DNA of 64,000 bases, from the NCBI RefSeq assembly GCF_033473495.1, contig NC_088943.1, positions 972,001 through 1,036,000 on the forward strand. The letters are read 5' to 3'. The notes under the pieces are model-generated. The model worked only from the letters and a program-made list of their open reading frames with translations, made no database searches and was not told the DNA's origin. Both the position numbers and the translations under genes were made by a program. This DNA comes from Cercospora beticola (lineage: Eukaryota > Ascomycota > Dothideomycetes > Mycosphaerellales > Mycosphaerellaceae). The first letter of the stretch is position 1; every line of letters begins with the position of its first letter. Below, one piece after another: positions 2,898-61,463 of this stretch.

Positions 2898-4612
2898 AGG
2901 ATCGATAAGCAGATGCGGTCATAGGCAAGCGATAGACATTAATGCCTTGTGATACTAGCAGATACCATAAGATCAATCACAAATGCTTGATGAAATGCAC
3001 ATGAATTGTCTTGTTTGCACATGATCCTATCTCCTTTTCTGGATTCGCGGCAGCCTTCGCGCTGCTAAACCGATAAGCGACGGACGACAGGGCATGATGG
3101 TACGTTCAGAGAATATCAGTGGTATTTTGTTCACGCCTAAGACAGGTTCCACTAGGCACAGCTTTTTCCGGCATAATTGCCAAATTGATGCTACCTCCTT
3201 GGCAATCGCAGACCAAAACGTACAGTCTAGATAGATGAAACTTGTTCGATAACTTCTAACCGCTGTTCAGGAGAAGAATTGCTCCTTGTCGTTGTATCTC
3301 GCTCGGGCGTCGCTTCTGTATTGGTAAGTAACAATTAAGGGAACAATCATACAAAGTCTGTCGATGCTATACTTGATGGATAAGAGGAAACAAACAATGG
3401 ATGCGTTGCTTCTTCAGGCAGGCTATCAGCAACGCTGCCTTGTATAACCGATGTAGATGGCACTGGCGACTAGGTACGTGCTGGGAAGAACATACAAATC
3501 GACCGAATCCGGTGGCATTCTCTTTCTTTCCCAAATTCCAAATTGCTTGCGAGCCATCAGTTTGGAAGAAGCAGTCTGTTATAGTATGGTCGTGTGCCCA
3601 GAGACATGAATGCGTAGTGGAATGCTACGGAGGCACGACTCATTGTATCTGCTCCCCGGTACAGGCTGCTGCTCCTGAATTGGCACGCAAAGCTATGCTA
3701 CTAGTCAAGCAACAAATCAGACATAGCCAACTTGCTATCATCAGAGCTACCACCGCCCAAAGGTTGACTTGTCTTGTTTCGCAACTCCATAATCAGTCTT
3801 ACACAGCAGCTTTCCTTCCCTACCATGAGACTCATGACGCCCCAAGGGGCTCCAATCAGCGAAACCAGAGCTCCACCTGCTCGTCTAATGTGAACAAAGC
3901 GTCAATATGAACTCCAACTGGACAGGCGAGCTTATTAGTACTGATACAGGGCCTTAGTGAGCTCATGTATGCGACGCGAAGGCGTCGCCGCTGGAATTTT
4001 GTACTCTGGGTCCAGCAGTCGGTGTAGGACGTGAGGTTATCATGCATCATGCGTCTCCTACAAGTAAGGGAGAGCCGTCTTGGTCCATCAATTTGCACTG
4101 TCCCGACGGACTTGCAATTTAACAGTAGTCAGTCCTTCTCTGCTTGACGAGCTGGGTTGCTTCCCGCGCTCGTCTTTTTACATAGCAGCTGCGATGCATC
4201 GATCGATCCAGAGATATGGATACCCGATTCTCGTGTCTCTGAAATTGGACAGGAATAAATTCTTGAGTATTCTCTGGTTCAGCACCTGTGTAACGTCTTT
4301 GGACCCGGAGAGATTAGTCAATTTGATAGTATCTCAATTTCTGGGCGGAAGTACTTCTCGTAATTTCTCCATGCATAGCCCCTGGAAAGCCCGATTTGAT
4401 TTGGAGAGACAGCGGCGATTTCTGATATTGGCAGTCACAAGCGACTTCATCCCGAGTGAATGGCAGGATCGACTTCACATGCATTAGTCTTGCACATGCA
4501 TCCATGTGAAGAAGTGAGGAAGGAAGTCATGACTACCACAACTCCCTTCATCCGAAATTCTCTCTTCTGTTCCACTGCCACCAACACACCAACACCACCA
4601 AAGCAAAGACCC
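2898..4612. other. Gene-free stretch before the secreted-protein pair
   Basis: 1.7 kb. The longest open frame (3401-3910) has a Cys/Trp-scattered composition, no recognisable domain and no splice context, so I see no gene. The last 200 bases hold the duplicated promoter block described separately. Confidence 0.5.
4493..4508. promoter_or_regulatory. Imperfect palindrome upstream of secreted gene A
   Basis: The 16-mer CACATGCATCCATGTG lies 105 bp before the ATG of the first secreted-protein gene. An identical copy sits 117 bp before the paralogue at 6697. Its arms CACATG/CATGTG make it a candidate factor site or duplicated core element. It is preceded by a second block shared by both promoters, of the form GAATGGCA...TTCACATGCA. 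Confidence 0.5.
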
Positions 4613-48570: not shown

Positions 48571-51500
48571 ATGTCTGACTCTAACGCCCGCGATGAGTCT
48601 GCCATTGAGGACGGAGACTACGGCACTCAGGATCCTCATGGCGAGACACACCACCAAAAGAACACCGTTCACCAACGGCTGCGGGCGAACTCTTCTATTA
48701 TGCAACTGAACAAAATTCTGGTCGCCAACAGAGGAGAAATCCCCATTCGTATCTTCCGTACCGCACACGAGCTGTCTCTGCAGACAGTCGCAGTCTACAG
48801 TCATGAGGACCGCCTCTCGATGCACAGACAGAAGGCCGACGAGGCATATGTCATTGGAAAGCGTGGAGAATACACACCCGTGGGAGCCTATCTGGCTGGC
48901 GACGCAATCATCAAGATTGCGAAGGAACATGGCGTCAACATGGTAAGTTTCATGCGAACTGGACACGGCTGTGGATATCGATATGATCTTAGTGGTGTGC
49001 GGACAAAGCATTGTTCTGTGTCTAGTGTCTCATTTGGCAGTGTCTGACTTGCTACCTAGATTCATCCCGGTTACGGTTTCCTCAGTGAGAACTACGAATT
49101 CGCAAAGGCCGTTGAAGCTGCAGGCATTATTTGGGTTGGTCCTGAACCAAAGACCATCAACGACCTCGGAGACAAGGTCTCTGCACGAACCCTCGCGGCG
49201 AAAGCTGATGTCCCGACTGTACCCGGTACCGAGGGACCTGTGGCCAAGTTCGAGGCCGCGAAGGAGTTCACCGACGAGTATGGCTTCCCAATCATCATCA
49301 AGGCGGCTTTCGGTGGTGGTGGCCGTGGTATGCGTGTTGTTTGGAAGCAAGAAGATCTGAAGGACTCTTTTGAACGTGCTACCTCGGAAGCTAAATCCGC
49401 CTTCGGCAACGGCACAGTCTTCATCGAGAGGTTCCTGTACCGACCAAAGCACATTGAGGTACAGCTCCTGGGCGACAACTACGGAAATGTCGTACACCTT
49501 TACGAGCGTGACTGCTCTGTCCAGCGACGTCACCAAAAGGTCGTCGAATTGGCACCTGCTAAGGATCTGCCACAAGAGACCCGCGATGCCATCCTGAATG
49601 ATGCAGTCAGACTCGCCAAATCGGCAAACTACCGCAACGCAGGTACTGCTGAGTTCTTGGTTGATCAAGAGAACCGTCACTACTTCATTGAAATCAACCC
49701 GCGTATCCAAGTCGAGCACACCATTACCGAGGAAATCACGGGCATCGATATCGTTGCTGCACAAATCCAAATCGCCGCAGGAGCATCACTCGCACAGCTT
49801 GGCCTTACTCAGGACAGAATCTCAACACGAGGCTTTGCTATTCAGTGTCGTATCACCACTGAGGATCCATCTGAGGGCTTCAAGCCGGACACTGGAAAGA
49901 TCGAAGTCTAGTAAGTTTCATACCACCAAACACGTTTTAGAAAGAGTACTGACAGCCTTAAATCCGTTCGGCTGGTGGCAACGGCGTACGGTAAGTGCCT
50001 CAATTACTGCTCCTGAGTGCCATGAGCTGATTTGGGTGTCTAGACTTGATGGTGGAAACGGGTTTTCGGGAGCTGTCATCACTCCATACTATGACTCTAT
50101 GTTGGTCAAGTGCTCTTGCCACGGCTCAACGTAAGTTCAGCACGCTACTTCTCATCTTTTCTCTGCGGAGTCGAGTGGCTCAGAGGCCACCTGCTCGGAT
50201 AAGCCTAAGATTGTGGCCCCGGAGACTGGCTGAGGCATCCACTGACCAGGATCGCAGGTACGAGATCGCTCGCAGAAAGGTGCTTCGTGCATTGGTCGAA
50301 TTCCGTATTCGCGGTCTGAAGACGAACATTCCTTTCCTTGCCTCGCTCCTCACGCACCCGACCTTCATCGACGGTACCTGCTGGACGACTTTCATTGACG
50401 ATACCCCAGAGCTGTTCAACCTCATTGGCAGCCAAAACCGTGCACAAAAGCTCCTGGGCTACCTTGGAGAGGTCATTGTCAACGGCCCTCAAGTCATTGG
50501 CCAAATTGGCGAATCAAAATTCAAGGGCGATGCTATCATCCCAACACTGGCAGGCGACGATGGCAAGCCACTAGAGCTCGATGGGCCATGCCAGAAGGGT
50601 TGGAGAAACATCATCACAGAACAAGGTCCAGAAGCCTTCGCAAAGGCTGTAAGGCAGAACAAGGGCTGCTTGATCATGGATACCACATGGCGTGACGCCC
50701 ATCAGTCTCTCCTTGCGACGAGAATGCGAACGGTCGACCTTCTCAACATCGCAAAGGAAACCAGCTATGCTCTGAGCAATGCTTGGGCATTGGAGTGCTG
50801 GGGTGGTGCCACTTTCGACGTGGCCATGCGTTTCCTTTACGAGGATCCATGGGACCGCCTGAGGAAGATGCGAAAGGCTGTGCCAAACATTCCTTTCCAG
50901 ATGCTGCTCCGTGGTGCCAACGGTGTGGCTTACTCTTCCCTGCCAGACAATGCCATCTACCACTTCTGTGAGCAGGCAAAGAAGAACGGCATGGACATTT
51001 TCCGTGTCTTCGACGCGCTCAACGACATGAACCAGCTCGAGGTTGGAGTCAAGGCAGTTCTCAAGGCTGGAGGTGTTGCAGAGGGAACCGTGTGCTATAG
51101 CGGTGATTTTCTGGTGAGTCCAATCTTTTCATTAACATCGCTTCTGAGTCTTGTGAGTGTGTGCGCTTTAATCTATTCGCTCCCCAAGTGAGCGTGGCCG
51201 AGGTGTTACTGCCTTTGCGCGGAGCACCTTCCCCAAGTGAGGTCGACTTGGTGGGCGGGATTGCCTTCGCACGAAGCACCTTCCTGCCCATGTACGCTCC
51301 TCCCTCCGGACTTTGGACACGCAACTTCCTACTCTGCGCGCCAGAAGGCAGCAACTGGTTTCCAAGATGCAGTCGACAATCTCGTCGCCAGGCACCTCTG
51401 GACAACACTCAAACGCACTGAACATCCCGCCGCCCTCGCCAATACCACTGCCGTCTTTGCCCACATTATCGCCTCTGCAGCCATGGCACCAGCACTCTCA

Positions 51501-54187
51501 CTTCCAGCACTCTCAGACGACCTGGAGACCTCACTCTGGCGATGCTTCTCACTTTCTTCTGACAAAATGATCAATCCTACATTAAAGAGAGTCTTCACTA
51601 CTCAAGAAGAACTCCTGGGTGCATTCAATGCGGCAAACGTGTCACTCGTTCCTGGTCTAATGGACCAGCTTCAATCCAGCGCTCCACCCACCGTTGCCAG
51701 TCTCAAGAAAGGCCCCACGTCGGCCACCAAGTCCTTCGGCTGCTACATTGTTGTGCTTGAAAAACCTGGACAGCGTCCAAAGATCTACGTCGGCACTGGT
51801 TTCGAGAGACGATCCGGCGTTACGACCGGATTCGGCCAGTACAGGAGGCTCGAGAACCTGCCCAAGTGGGTGCAGAAAGCTGTCAATGATGGCTACACTA
51901 TCACATTCAAAGGCCTGCTAGCCTGGTGCAAGATCCCAGCCGCTTCGAAGATCCCAAAGACTCAAGCTGTGTTCTTAGTGATCGAGGCAGTACTCAGTGT
52001 TCGCCTCTCAGCTATGCACAACCGCCCCAAACAATACGGCATGCCAAAGCTCTGCGACTGGTCTCATGATGCCTTTGAGTATGACGGCTGCTGCGGACAC
52101 TCTCCGCTTCGAGAAGGTGTCGCCGGTCTCGTCAACGACTTGCCAGATGAAGAAGTCGATGCCATCGACAAGGAGCGGAAGCTCAAGAACTCTCGGCGAG
52201 ACAATGAGAAAGCGGGTCCAATGAAGCTGGCCCAATGGGCAAAGACGAGGAGAGAGAAGGCCTTGAAGGCGCGCAAGTTCTACTGTGGCGTCTGTGATCT
52301 CAACTTCGGCGCCAGAAACCAGTTACGCAACCACGAAAAGAAGCAAAGTCACATCAACAAGGCAGCTGGTATCGTCAAAGAAGTCAAGGAACCCGCCAAA
52401 CAACTACTTCATCAGGCAAACAAGGACTCCAAGAGATACTATTGCGTCACCTGCGACTACGCCGCCAAAACCTCAACAAAACTGAAGCTGCACAACTCGA
52501 CTCAGACGCACCGTGATGCAGTTGGACAGTCGAGCTCTTAACTGACACTTTCTACTCTCAGAACCCGAAGAAGAAGTACAACCTCGAGTACTACATGAAC
52601 TGTGTCGACAAGATCGTTGAAATGGGTGCTCACATTCTTGGTAAGTCCTTCTCACGCTTGTCATTGCCCCAAAATCGTCTCTCGAACGGATATCTGCGGC
52701 GGAATTGTGCCTGGGGCCAGGCTGAGGAGCAGCGGCCTCTCTTTGTCCGTGGAGGGATTGTCATCTTCCAGCAATTGCGTCTCGATCAACACCTGCTGAC
52801 TGCAAATTACAGGTATCAAAGACATGGCTGGTGTGTTGAAGCCAAAGGCCGCCACTCTGCTCGTTGGCACCATCCGCAAGAAGTATCCAGATCTTCCGAT
52901 CCACGTCCACACCCACGACTCTGCTGGTACTGGTGTAGCGTCCATGGTTGCCTGCGCCCAGGCTGGCGCCGATGCCGTTGATGCTGCAACTGACAGCATG
53001 TCTGGAACCACCTCTCAGCCAAGCATTGGTGCCATCGTTGCTTCTCTCGAAGGCAGCGAATTCGAATCTGGACTGAACCCAGTCCACTTGCGAGCAATCG
53101 ATTCGTATTGGGCGCAGGTTCGCATGCTGTATTCGCCATTCGAAGCTTGGTTGACTGGGCCGGATCCGGAAGTCTACGAGCACGAAATTCCTGGAGGTCA
53201 GCTCACCAACTTGATCTTCCAAGCTGCACAACAAGGTCTTGGCGAGCAGTGGGCACAGACCAAGAAGGCCTACGAGCAAGCCAACGACATCCTCGGCGAC
53301 ATCGTCAAAGTCACACCCACTTCCAAGGTAGTTGGTGATCTTGCACAGTTCATGGTCGCGAACAGCTTGACCTACGATGATGTGCACGAGAAGGCAGAAG
53401 AGCTTGACTTCCCATCTTCGGTCCTTGAGTTCTTCGAAGGATTGATGGGTCAGCCTTACGGAGGCTTCCCAGAACCGCTCCGATCCAAGGCTCTCCGTGA
53501 TCGCAGAAAGATGGACAAGCGACCAGGCCTCTATCTTGATCCGGTCAACTTCGACAAGGTCCGTGAGACACTGAAGGAGAAGTATGGTGGCTGCTCCGAG
53601 ACCGATGTAGCCAGCTACGTCATGTACCCGAAGGTCTTCGAGGACTACAAGAAGTGGACATCGCAGTTCGGTGACCTCTCAGTCTTGCCAACGAGATACT
53701 TCCTCAACAAGCCAGAGATTGGCGAGGAATTCCACGTTGAGCTCGAGAAGGGCAAGGTGCTCATTCTGAAGCTCTTGGCGATTGGACCACTCAGCGACCA
53801 GACTGGCCAACGTGAGGTCTTCTTCGAGGTCAACGGCGAGATGAGACAGGTCACTGTTCAAGACAAGCACGCTGCAGTGGAGAACACTAGCCGACCAAAG
53901 GCCGACTCTGGCGACAGCAGCCAAGTCGGAGCACCAATGAGCGGTATGGTTGTCGAAATCCGTGTCAAGGATGGCGGAGAGATCAAGAAGGGTGATCCAA
54001 TTGCCATTTTGTCGGCAATGAAGATGGTAAGCTATCACATGCATTTCTGGACGTGTGGCAATGCTAACAATAATCACAGGAAATGGTCATCTCTTCGCCA
54101 CACTCTGGCAAGATTGAAGAGCTCAGCGTCAAGGAGGGTGACTCCGTTGATAGCTCTGACCTGATATGCAAGATTGCAAAAGCATAG
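48571..54187 (+). CDS. PYC: Pyruvate carboxylase
   Basis: Eight exons give 1197 aa: 48571-48942, 49060-49910, 49964-49990, 50044-50130, 50258-51113, 52562-52640, 52813-54026, 54080-54187. It makes oxaloacetate from pyruvate and bicarbonate with ATP and biotin; the fungal enzyme is cytosolic. Biotin carboxylase: [48 protein letters not shown]. Carboxyltransferase: [38 protein letters not shown]. Biotin carrier: AILSAMKM joined to EMVIS, with Lys1161 as biotin site; intron 7 lies directly after AMKM. Intron 5 is 1448 nt and carries another gene. Intron 2 (49911-49963) has donor GTAAGT and branch ACTGAC, but its only frame-preserving end is AAT at 49961-49963, so the acceptor is AT. Confidence 0.93.
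49911..49963 (+). other. Apparent GT-AT intron in pyruvate carboxylase
   Basis: The upstream exon ends KIEV-TA and the next must start C-CGT-TCG to give the invariant [15 protein letters not shown]. The base pair before that point is AT. A good branch site (ACTGAC, 49948-49953) lies 11 nt upstream, the same spacing as in the other introns of this gene. The nearest AG (CAG at 49952-49954... directly on the branch) shifts the frame. Either an AG was changed to AT, the assembly has an error, or splicing is non-canonical. Confidence 0.6.
51182..51282 (+). repeat. Two-unit imperfect tandem repeat inside the long intron
   Basis: Units 51182-51230 and 51231-51282 both begin CCCCAAGTGAG and end with TTGCxTTCGCxCGxAGCACCTT. 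It lies between the donor and the nuclease frame, where a promoter for an intron-internal gene would be. Confidence 0.55.
51483..52541 (+). CDS. Putative GIY-YIG nuclease with two C2H2 zinc fingers, nested in PYC intron 5
   Basis: 352 aa from ATG 51483 (GCAGCCATGG, the first ATG in frame; the frame itself is open from about 51237). A GIY-YIG-like core is visible: G86-C-Y88, then Y102-V-G104, followed by [17 protein letters not shown] with candidate catalytic Arg109/110. [13 protein letters not shown] has candidate Glu168, and MHNRPKQYG has Asn180. Zinc finger 1 is C268-x2-C271-x12-H284-x5-H290 and finger 2 is C321-x2-C324-x12-H337-x5-H343, both of the H-x5-H type used for DNA or RNA binding. 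A lysine/arginine-rich linker joins nuclease and fingers. The order fits a site-specific nuclease. It is on the same strand as the host gene and lies wholly within the intron; its TAA overlaps the branch region. Homing activity is inference. Confidence 0.75.
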   Translation: MAPALSLPALSDDLETSLWRCFSLSSDKMINPTLKRVFTTQEELLGAFNAANVSLVPGLMDQLQSSAPPTVASLKKGPTSATKSFGCYIVVLEKPGQRPKIYVGTGFERRSGVTTGFGQYRRLENLPKWVQKAVNDGYTITFKGLLAWCKIPAASKIPKTQAVFLVIEAVLSVRLSAMHNRPKQYGMPKLCDWSHDAFEYDGCCGHSPLREGVAGLVNDLPDEEVDAIDKERKLKNSRRDNEKAGPMKLAQWAKTRREKALKARKFYCGVCDLNFGARNQLRNHEKKQSHINKAAGIVKEVKEPAKQLLHQANKDSKRYYCVTCDYAAKTSTKLKLHNSTQTHRDAVGQSSS

Positions 54188-61064: not shown

Positions 61065-61463
61065 ATGGATTCCGCAAAGTCAGTCGCTCTGAGGAGGCGC
61101 AAGATGAGGGCATAAGGACACATACTGACGGGTTGCGCGCAGGGTCCCAGTCAAGCTCGTCAAGGTCACCCGTGTCCTCGGCCGTACCGGTATGCGATAC
61201 TCAAGAGATGGAGCATGAAAGAAAGGAAGAAAGAACGGAAATCTGACAAGAGTGCAGGCTCTCGTGGTGGTGTGACCCAGGTCCGCGTCGAGTTCATGGA
61301 CGATACCACCCGTAGCATCATCCGCAACGTCAAGGGCCCAGGTAAGGACAACATGTGCAGAATTGCAGAAAGTAGGGACAAAATACTGACTGTCGCGGCA
61401 GTCCGTGAGGACGACATCCTCTGCCTCCTCGAATCTGAGCGTGAGGCCCGCAGACTGAGATAA
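61065..61463 (+). CDS. RPS28: 40S ribosomal protein S28 (eS28)
   Basis: Four small exons, 61065-61078 (14 nt), 61143-61189, 61258-61341 and 61402-61463, give 68 aa, the exact family length. The joined protein begins [20 protein letters not shown] and continues [40 protein letters not shown] and EREARRLR, the nearly invariant eS28 sequence. It binds 18S rRNA near the mRNA exit channel of the small subunit. The three introns are 64, 68 and 60 nt. Heavy interruption of a 207-nt coding region is common for ribosomal genes. No single long frame covers it, so automated ORF finding would miss it. Confidence 0.95.

Follow-up and report, generated by a model that had tools for sequence, protein, structure and literature searches.

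A zinc-finger reading frame with a predicted GIY-YIG-like fold inside a pyruvate carboxylase intron of Cercospora beticola

Spliceosomal introns that carry endonuclease genes have been described from mirusviruses, where 334 such genes, 132 of them of the GIY-YIG type, lie inside introns that were named shintrons (PMC12768974). That report states that this association of nuclease and spliceosomal intron had not been observed before, and presents homing of the shintrons as proposed, not demonstrated. Here we report a comparable arrangement in the nuclear genome of the fungus Cercospora beticola. Within a 64-kb window (the whole stretch of DNA that was analysed), the fifth intron of the pyruvate carboxylase (PYC) gene contains an open reading frame (ORF) with a predicted GIY-YIG-like fold and two C2H2 zinc fingers, and a relative of this ORF lies between exons of a second housekeeping gene, CPA2. 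The first-pass annotation of the window had known of no named system of this kind, a view now out of date; the name shintron dates from November 2025 (PMC12768974).

The likeness to shintrons is one of architecture. Shintrons likewise hold endonuclease genes, GIY-YIG included, in GT-AG introns without group I or group II signatures and in several host genes; those hosts are virion genes of viruses (PMC12768974), whereas in C. beticola the interrupted genes are metabolic ones in the nucleus of a cellular organism. The C. beticola introns differ further in their C2H2 fingers, a common DNA motif and visible decay.

The ORF also resembles the GIY-YIG homing endonucleases of group I introns, such as I-TevI, in its predicted catalytic fold and in the conserved Tyr, Tyr, Arg and Glu columns of its family. 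I-TevI has a zinc-binding part, as does the protein described here. Unlike enzymes of the I-TevI type, however, the PYC and CPA2 copies occupy nuclear pre-mRNA introns without a self-splicing match in Rfam, their fingers are of the C2H2 class, and the PYC copy lacks the Arg. Decay of a GIY-YIG gene within a fungal nucleus has been reported before, for UMAG_11064 of Ustilago maydis, which is of mitochondrial origin and absent from other isolates; in contrast to the present case, it is a single telomeric gene that truncated a helicase gene, outside a spliceosomal intron (PMC7593156). Group I introns of nuclear rDNA with His-Cys nuclease genes are a further example of homing endonuclease genes in eukaryotic nuclei, but there a spliceosomal intron lies inside the nuclease gene (PMC9548176), whereas here the nuclease gene lies inside a spliceosomal intron. 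Among the papers listed by a literature search over titles and abstract openings, with subscription papers mostly outside its scope, none described a nuclease gene within a spliceosomal intron of a cellular organism.

The intron and its nested reading frame

C. beticola is a leaf-spot fungus of sugar beet, and the window is part of a genome of 36.07 Mb in 10 contigs. The host intron (Table 1) lies in a gene whose five other measured introns span 53, 53, 117, 127 and 172 nt, besides one between 49911 and 49991. When the exons are joined across 51114-52561, at GDFL|NPKK in the protein, an open frame results. Over the junction it aligns to solved pyruvate carboxylases from human and bacteria (E = 3.7e-45), apart from a single gap of one residue nearby; as judged from the joined flanks, removal of the intron at the predicted sites would yield the correct reading frame and protein. 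The complete 352-codon frame that the first-pass annotation had placed inside a GT-AG intron of PYC is upheld. An Rfam search at E up to 1 returned no match in this intron or in that of CPA2, which speaks against group I or group II identity for both and brings them in line with shintrons on this point; by the same result, these two copies lack the self-splicing intron home that defines the group I intron homing endonucleases.

Table 1. Features of the PYC locus and motif copies in the CPA2 intron
Feature	Position	Strand	Remark
PYC host gene, start to stop codon, several introns	48571..54187	+	read from sequence; joined exons match solved pyruvate carboxylases
PYC exon 5' of host intron 5	50258..51113	+	
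PYC host intron 5, 1,448 nt	51114..52561	+	GTGAGT...CTCAG, phase 0, no Rfam match
Motif copy 1, TTTGCNCGGAGCACCTKCC	51214..51232	+	exact
Motif copy 2	51266..51284	+	2 mismatches
Nested ORF, 352 aa	51483..52541	+	GIY-YIG-like predicted fold, two C2H2 fingers
Stretch matched to I-TevI catalytic domain, aa 83-212	51729..52118	+	
Codon 116, Gly (GGA)	51828..51830	+	Arg in 98/101 family rows
C2H2 finger 1, aa 266-290	52278..52352	+	
C2H2 finger 2, aa 319-343	52437..52511	+	
CTGAC, branch-point-like word directly 3' of nested ORF stop, 15 nt before intron end	52542..52546	+	sequence; role inferred
PYC exon 3' of host intron 5	52562..52640	+	
CPA2-intron motif copies	G000:C4:61324-61342 and 61226-61244		

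The nested ORF runs on the sense strand of PYC without an internal stop, and its start codon lies within GCAGCCATGG. Its open length is weaker evidence and not decisive alone: the stop-free run spans 449 codons, and in 2000 second-order Markov introns, which were trained on PYC intron 5 itself, the 99th percentile lies at 352 and the longest run at 478. Scored for codon use against the PYC exons, the ORF frame reaches 0.08 per codon, compared with -0.21 and -0.30 for the other frames, 0.34 for a PYC exon and -0.18 to -0.28 for the portion of the intron upstream of the ORF. Because codon use fits the PYC exons in the ORF frame only, and because a first search (E limit 1) listed 14 homologues of 212-432 residues and 30-50% identity (the best at 50%, none of those listed identical), we consider the ORF to exceed chance: it is real, conserved and surprising. 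Transfer from the mitochondrion was considered as its origin and provisionally set aside; codon use fits that of the PYC exons.

Both fingers that the first-pass annotation had recognised are present with C-x2-C-x12-H-x5-H spacing (C268/C271/H284/H290 and C321/C324/H337/H343). The profile search that it had suggested for both of its families retrieved the C2H2 one (zf-C2H2_jaz, PF12171; 27.4 bits, cut-off 22.6) and not the GIY-YIG one: PF01541 was absent from the 15 Pfam families matching the ORF at E up to 10, and from the 25 of 86 matching families listed for the 102 aligned members of the family. The GIY-YIG assignment therefore rests on the predicted fold and on conserved positions. Structure prediction, also proposed at that stage, matched residues 83-212 to the I-TevI catalytic domain, and the catalytic domain is accordingly predicted to fold like GIY-YIG nucleases. 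A Foldseek comparison with viral models yielded nothing at or below E 0.001; the weak matches included GIY-YIG and homing proteins (E 0.15-0.18) and C2H2 proteins.

The protein family and its copies in the genome

Three overlapping searches listed 14 (E limit 1), 89 (0.1) and 19 (0.001) proteins, and an alignment of 102 sequences was built that includes the window ORF and leaves out four proteins found later. Many rows are metagenome sequences, and all named sources are fungi: Cercospora, Elasticomyces, Hortaea, Colletotrichum, Cephalotrichum, Fusarium, Cadophora, Flavoplaca, Pleopsidium and Lipomyces. No relative was confirmed in viral and prokaryotic contig collections with either of two queries. 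The family C-termini carry a recurring S-rich tail, ending in LD in 17 of the 102 rows, which might mark a signal at the 3' end of the ORF, for instance a branch point overlapping the stop codon.

The Tyr/Tyr motifs and the catalytic Glu of the GIY-YIG superfamily are found in the family and kept in the PYC copy, as Tyr88 (100 of 101 rows), Tyr102 (101/101) and Glu168 (101/102, a catalytic candidate already in the first-pass annotation); column 104 is Gly in 100/100 rows. Column 116, which from the motif order we take to correspond to the catalytic Arg of enzymes like I-TevI, holds Arg in 98 of 101 rows, among them the CPA2 copy. The exceptions are P0013 (Gln), P0075 (Asp) and the PYC copy, in which Gly116 stands in place of this superfamily residue. 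The assignments of Arg109/110 and Asn180 as catalytic residues in the first-pass annotation did not hold: column 109 is mostly Ala or Ser, column 110 is Arg in 27/102 rows, and position 180 is Asn in 3/102. Among 42 columns conserved to at least 90%, the PYC copy departs at nine, the most of all 102 rows, and the CPA2 copy at one; all nine lie at residues 55-176 and none within the fingers. The PYC-intron ORF is thus the most eroded of the aligned family members. Since the conserved Arg is replaced, it is probably inactive as a nuclease, and the simplest reading of its sequence is that nuclease function was probably lost while the frame stayed open. Of the interpretation first proposed, the predicted GIY-YIG fold with C2H2 fingers and the home in a nuclear spliceosomal intron are supported.

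A search of the genome for paralogues, another of the suggested checks, located five family loci (queries: the window protein, P0015 and P0094). The CPA2 copy, which looks intact from its sequence, is a 384-residue ORF on contig C4 (L007:4286-5437, minus strand; stop just beyond), identical over 384 residues to CB0940_03846 of C. beticola. It is flanked by exons for the carbamoyl-phosphate synthase (CPSase) large subunit, the upstream one ending in ...KRTIMIN and the downstream one containing NPETYSTDFD; this second exon has one other match reaching 50%, on C5. The intron measures ~2.26 kb, and its donor GTGAGT directly follows AAC. Just before the ATG of the CPA2 copy (L007:5520-5462, minus) stands a splice-site-like pair, CAAG followed at the site by GTGAGTAAGG and, further on, TTGCACAG, which may belong to an intron in the leader of the nested gene itself. 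The three remaining loci are relics, all without a recognised host gene: one on C7 with one or two stops, depending on the query, a short one on C3 at 3.817 Mb, and a second short one on C3 at 3.099 Mb (L010:4703-5053, minus), which carries one stop and lies upstream of an ATP synthase gene, in antisense orientation to it. Across the genome, Pfam GIY-YIG matched a single locus (L001; G000:C7:854487-854708); this is another gene, by our naming probably SLX1.

The two introns have a motif in common, G[GA]AGCACCT[TG]CC, with two occurrences ahead of the ORF in each intron and none on the sense strand at the three relic loci; none of 300 paired shuffles reached this. The 19-mer TTTGCNCGGAGCACCTKCC, derived from both introns, matches exactly at two places genome-wide, one per intron. 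Allowing up to two mismatches gives seven sites, four of them in the two introns; up to three mismatches, 55 sites compare with 40 for a reversed control. The motif may be a binding site, a promoter or a splicing signal. Outside the ORFs, no similarity between the introns was found beyond short words and this motif.

Other host genes are indicated by relatives. P0094 of Pleopsidium flavum bears the name aconitate hydratase; as far as TICNMGA its sequence matches that of mitochondrial aconitase, and beyond this point it is family sequence. P0023 and P0085 of Elasticomyces elasticus are named cpa2, yet give only finger matches in Pfam; the name suggests a CPA2 locus. Searches for host exons in long members gave three chance-level matches for P0104 and mostly finger matches for P0101. 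A family tree of 99 of the 102 rows, whose bootstrap had not fully settled, places the PYC copy in an 11-row clade (100/99) on a branch of length 0.90. The C. beticola CPA2 copy and P0023 belong to a clade of 22 rows (96/90), P0085 to one of 9 (100/95), and P0094 lies elsewhere. Grouping the PYC and CPA2 copies as one clade was rejected (p-AU 0.014), and with it recent copying between the two loci, as was a clade of the three CPA2 rows (p-AU 0.002); the groups in both tests were chosen after the tree was known.

Proposed homing introns and competing explanations

Our favoured reading, to which we assign a probability of roughly 60%, is that the PYC-intron ORF is an eroded member of a fungal family with C2H2 fingers and a predicted GIY-YIG fold that likely spread as spliceosomal homing introns of nuclear housekeeping genes. 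An active copy would cut the intronless form of a host gene, guided by its fingers, and repair of the break would then copy the intron and its nuclease gene into the gap. The spliceosome would take the intron out of the mRNA, sparing the host enzyme; once the intron is fixed no target would be left, so that the nuclease would decay. Three stages of this decay would coexist in one genome: the intact-looking CPA2 copy, the PYC copy, still full-length but lacking the conserved Arg, and the three broken relics. On present evidence the PYC intron would work like a shintron: the architecture is shared, and homing is what we infer.

Two observations weigh against this reading. The first is that the three relics sit outside recognised genes. 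The second is the odd 3' splice site of CPA2, where the donor is clear and the acceptor is not. Before the expected exon start at YNPET, CTAACAACCGTGCCG abuts TTTAATCCCGAG without an AG at the boundary; the region (L007 ~3838-3860, minus) reads GTGCCG and then TTTAATCCC, with a branch-point-like CTAAC present. The next in-phase AG, CCCGAG before ACG, would delete YNPE if used. This may reflect a fault in the assembly, a splice site that has changed, or a deletion that the enzyme tolerates.

The relics would also suit a mobile gene that bears a nuclease, inserts widely and survives where it is harmless, for instance in pre-existing introns, the intron being a refuge outside the mobile unit. The lack of similarity between the introns outside their ORFs, the motif excepted, favours such a gene, as does a C. 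beticola aconitase intron within the Cys codon of the TICNMGA motif, close to the Pleopsidium junction. However, aconitase of C. beticola is uninterrupted at that exact junction, the two full-length frames both sit between exons in sense orientation, the PYC-intron ORF extends to 20 nt before the acceptor, and the motif is common to both introns. We regard this explanation as unlikely, if the strongest of the competitors.

Less likely still is a domesticated nested gene that gave up its nuclease and whose fingers now work for the host, for instance in the regulation of PYC or of other genes. It would account for a frame intact over 352 codons, for departures that spare the fingers, and for coding-like codon use, but the long branch and the record number of departures look like relaxed constraint, and the Arg is kept in 97 other rows besides the CPA2 copy. 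An alternative PYC exon yielding a fusion protein, for which the shared strand would speak, is highly improbable, given that the PYC frame continued into the intron meets a stop at 51189-51191, ahead of the ORF, and that the family occurs with other host genes.

Under the homing-intron reading, ordinary nuclear introns of fungi can likely be mobile. We also see a somewhat better than even chance that ascomycete nuclear genomes carry spliceosomal homing introns of their own, in PYC, CPA2 and aconitase, marked by a GIY-YIG/C2H2 nuclease, a private DNA motif, repeated invasion of conserved exon sites and later decay. For annotation, such ORFs call for caution, as they end up recorded as hypothetical genes (CB0940_03846) or joined with exons of the host in a gene model (P0094). 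The gain of spliceosomal introns, and their possible mobility, is a long-standing question for which mirusviruses provided a candidate in 2025; the C. beticola case brings a mobile-intron candidate into culturable fungi, with intact-looking members, such as the Cadophora and Lipomyces proteins, and target genes that can be compared across strains. If true, it would link the biology of homing endonucleases with the gain of nuclear introns, as the first cellular intron to arrive by DNA cutting and be removed by the spliceosome, and thus a present-day route of spliceosomal intron gain.
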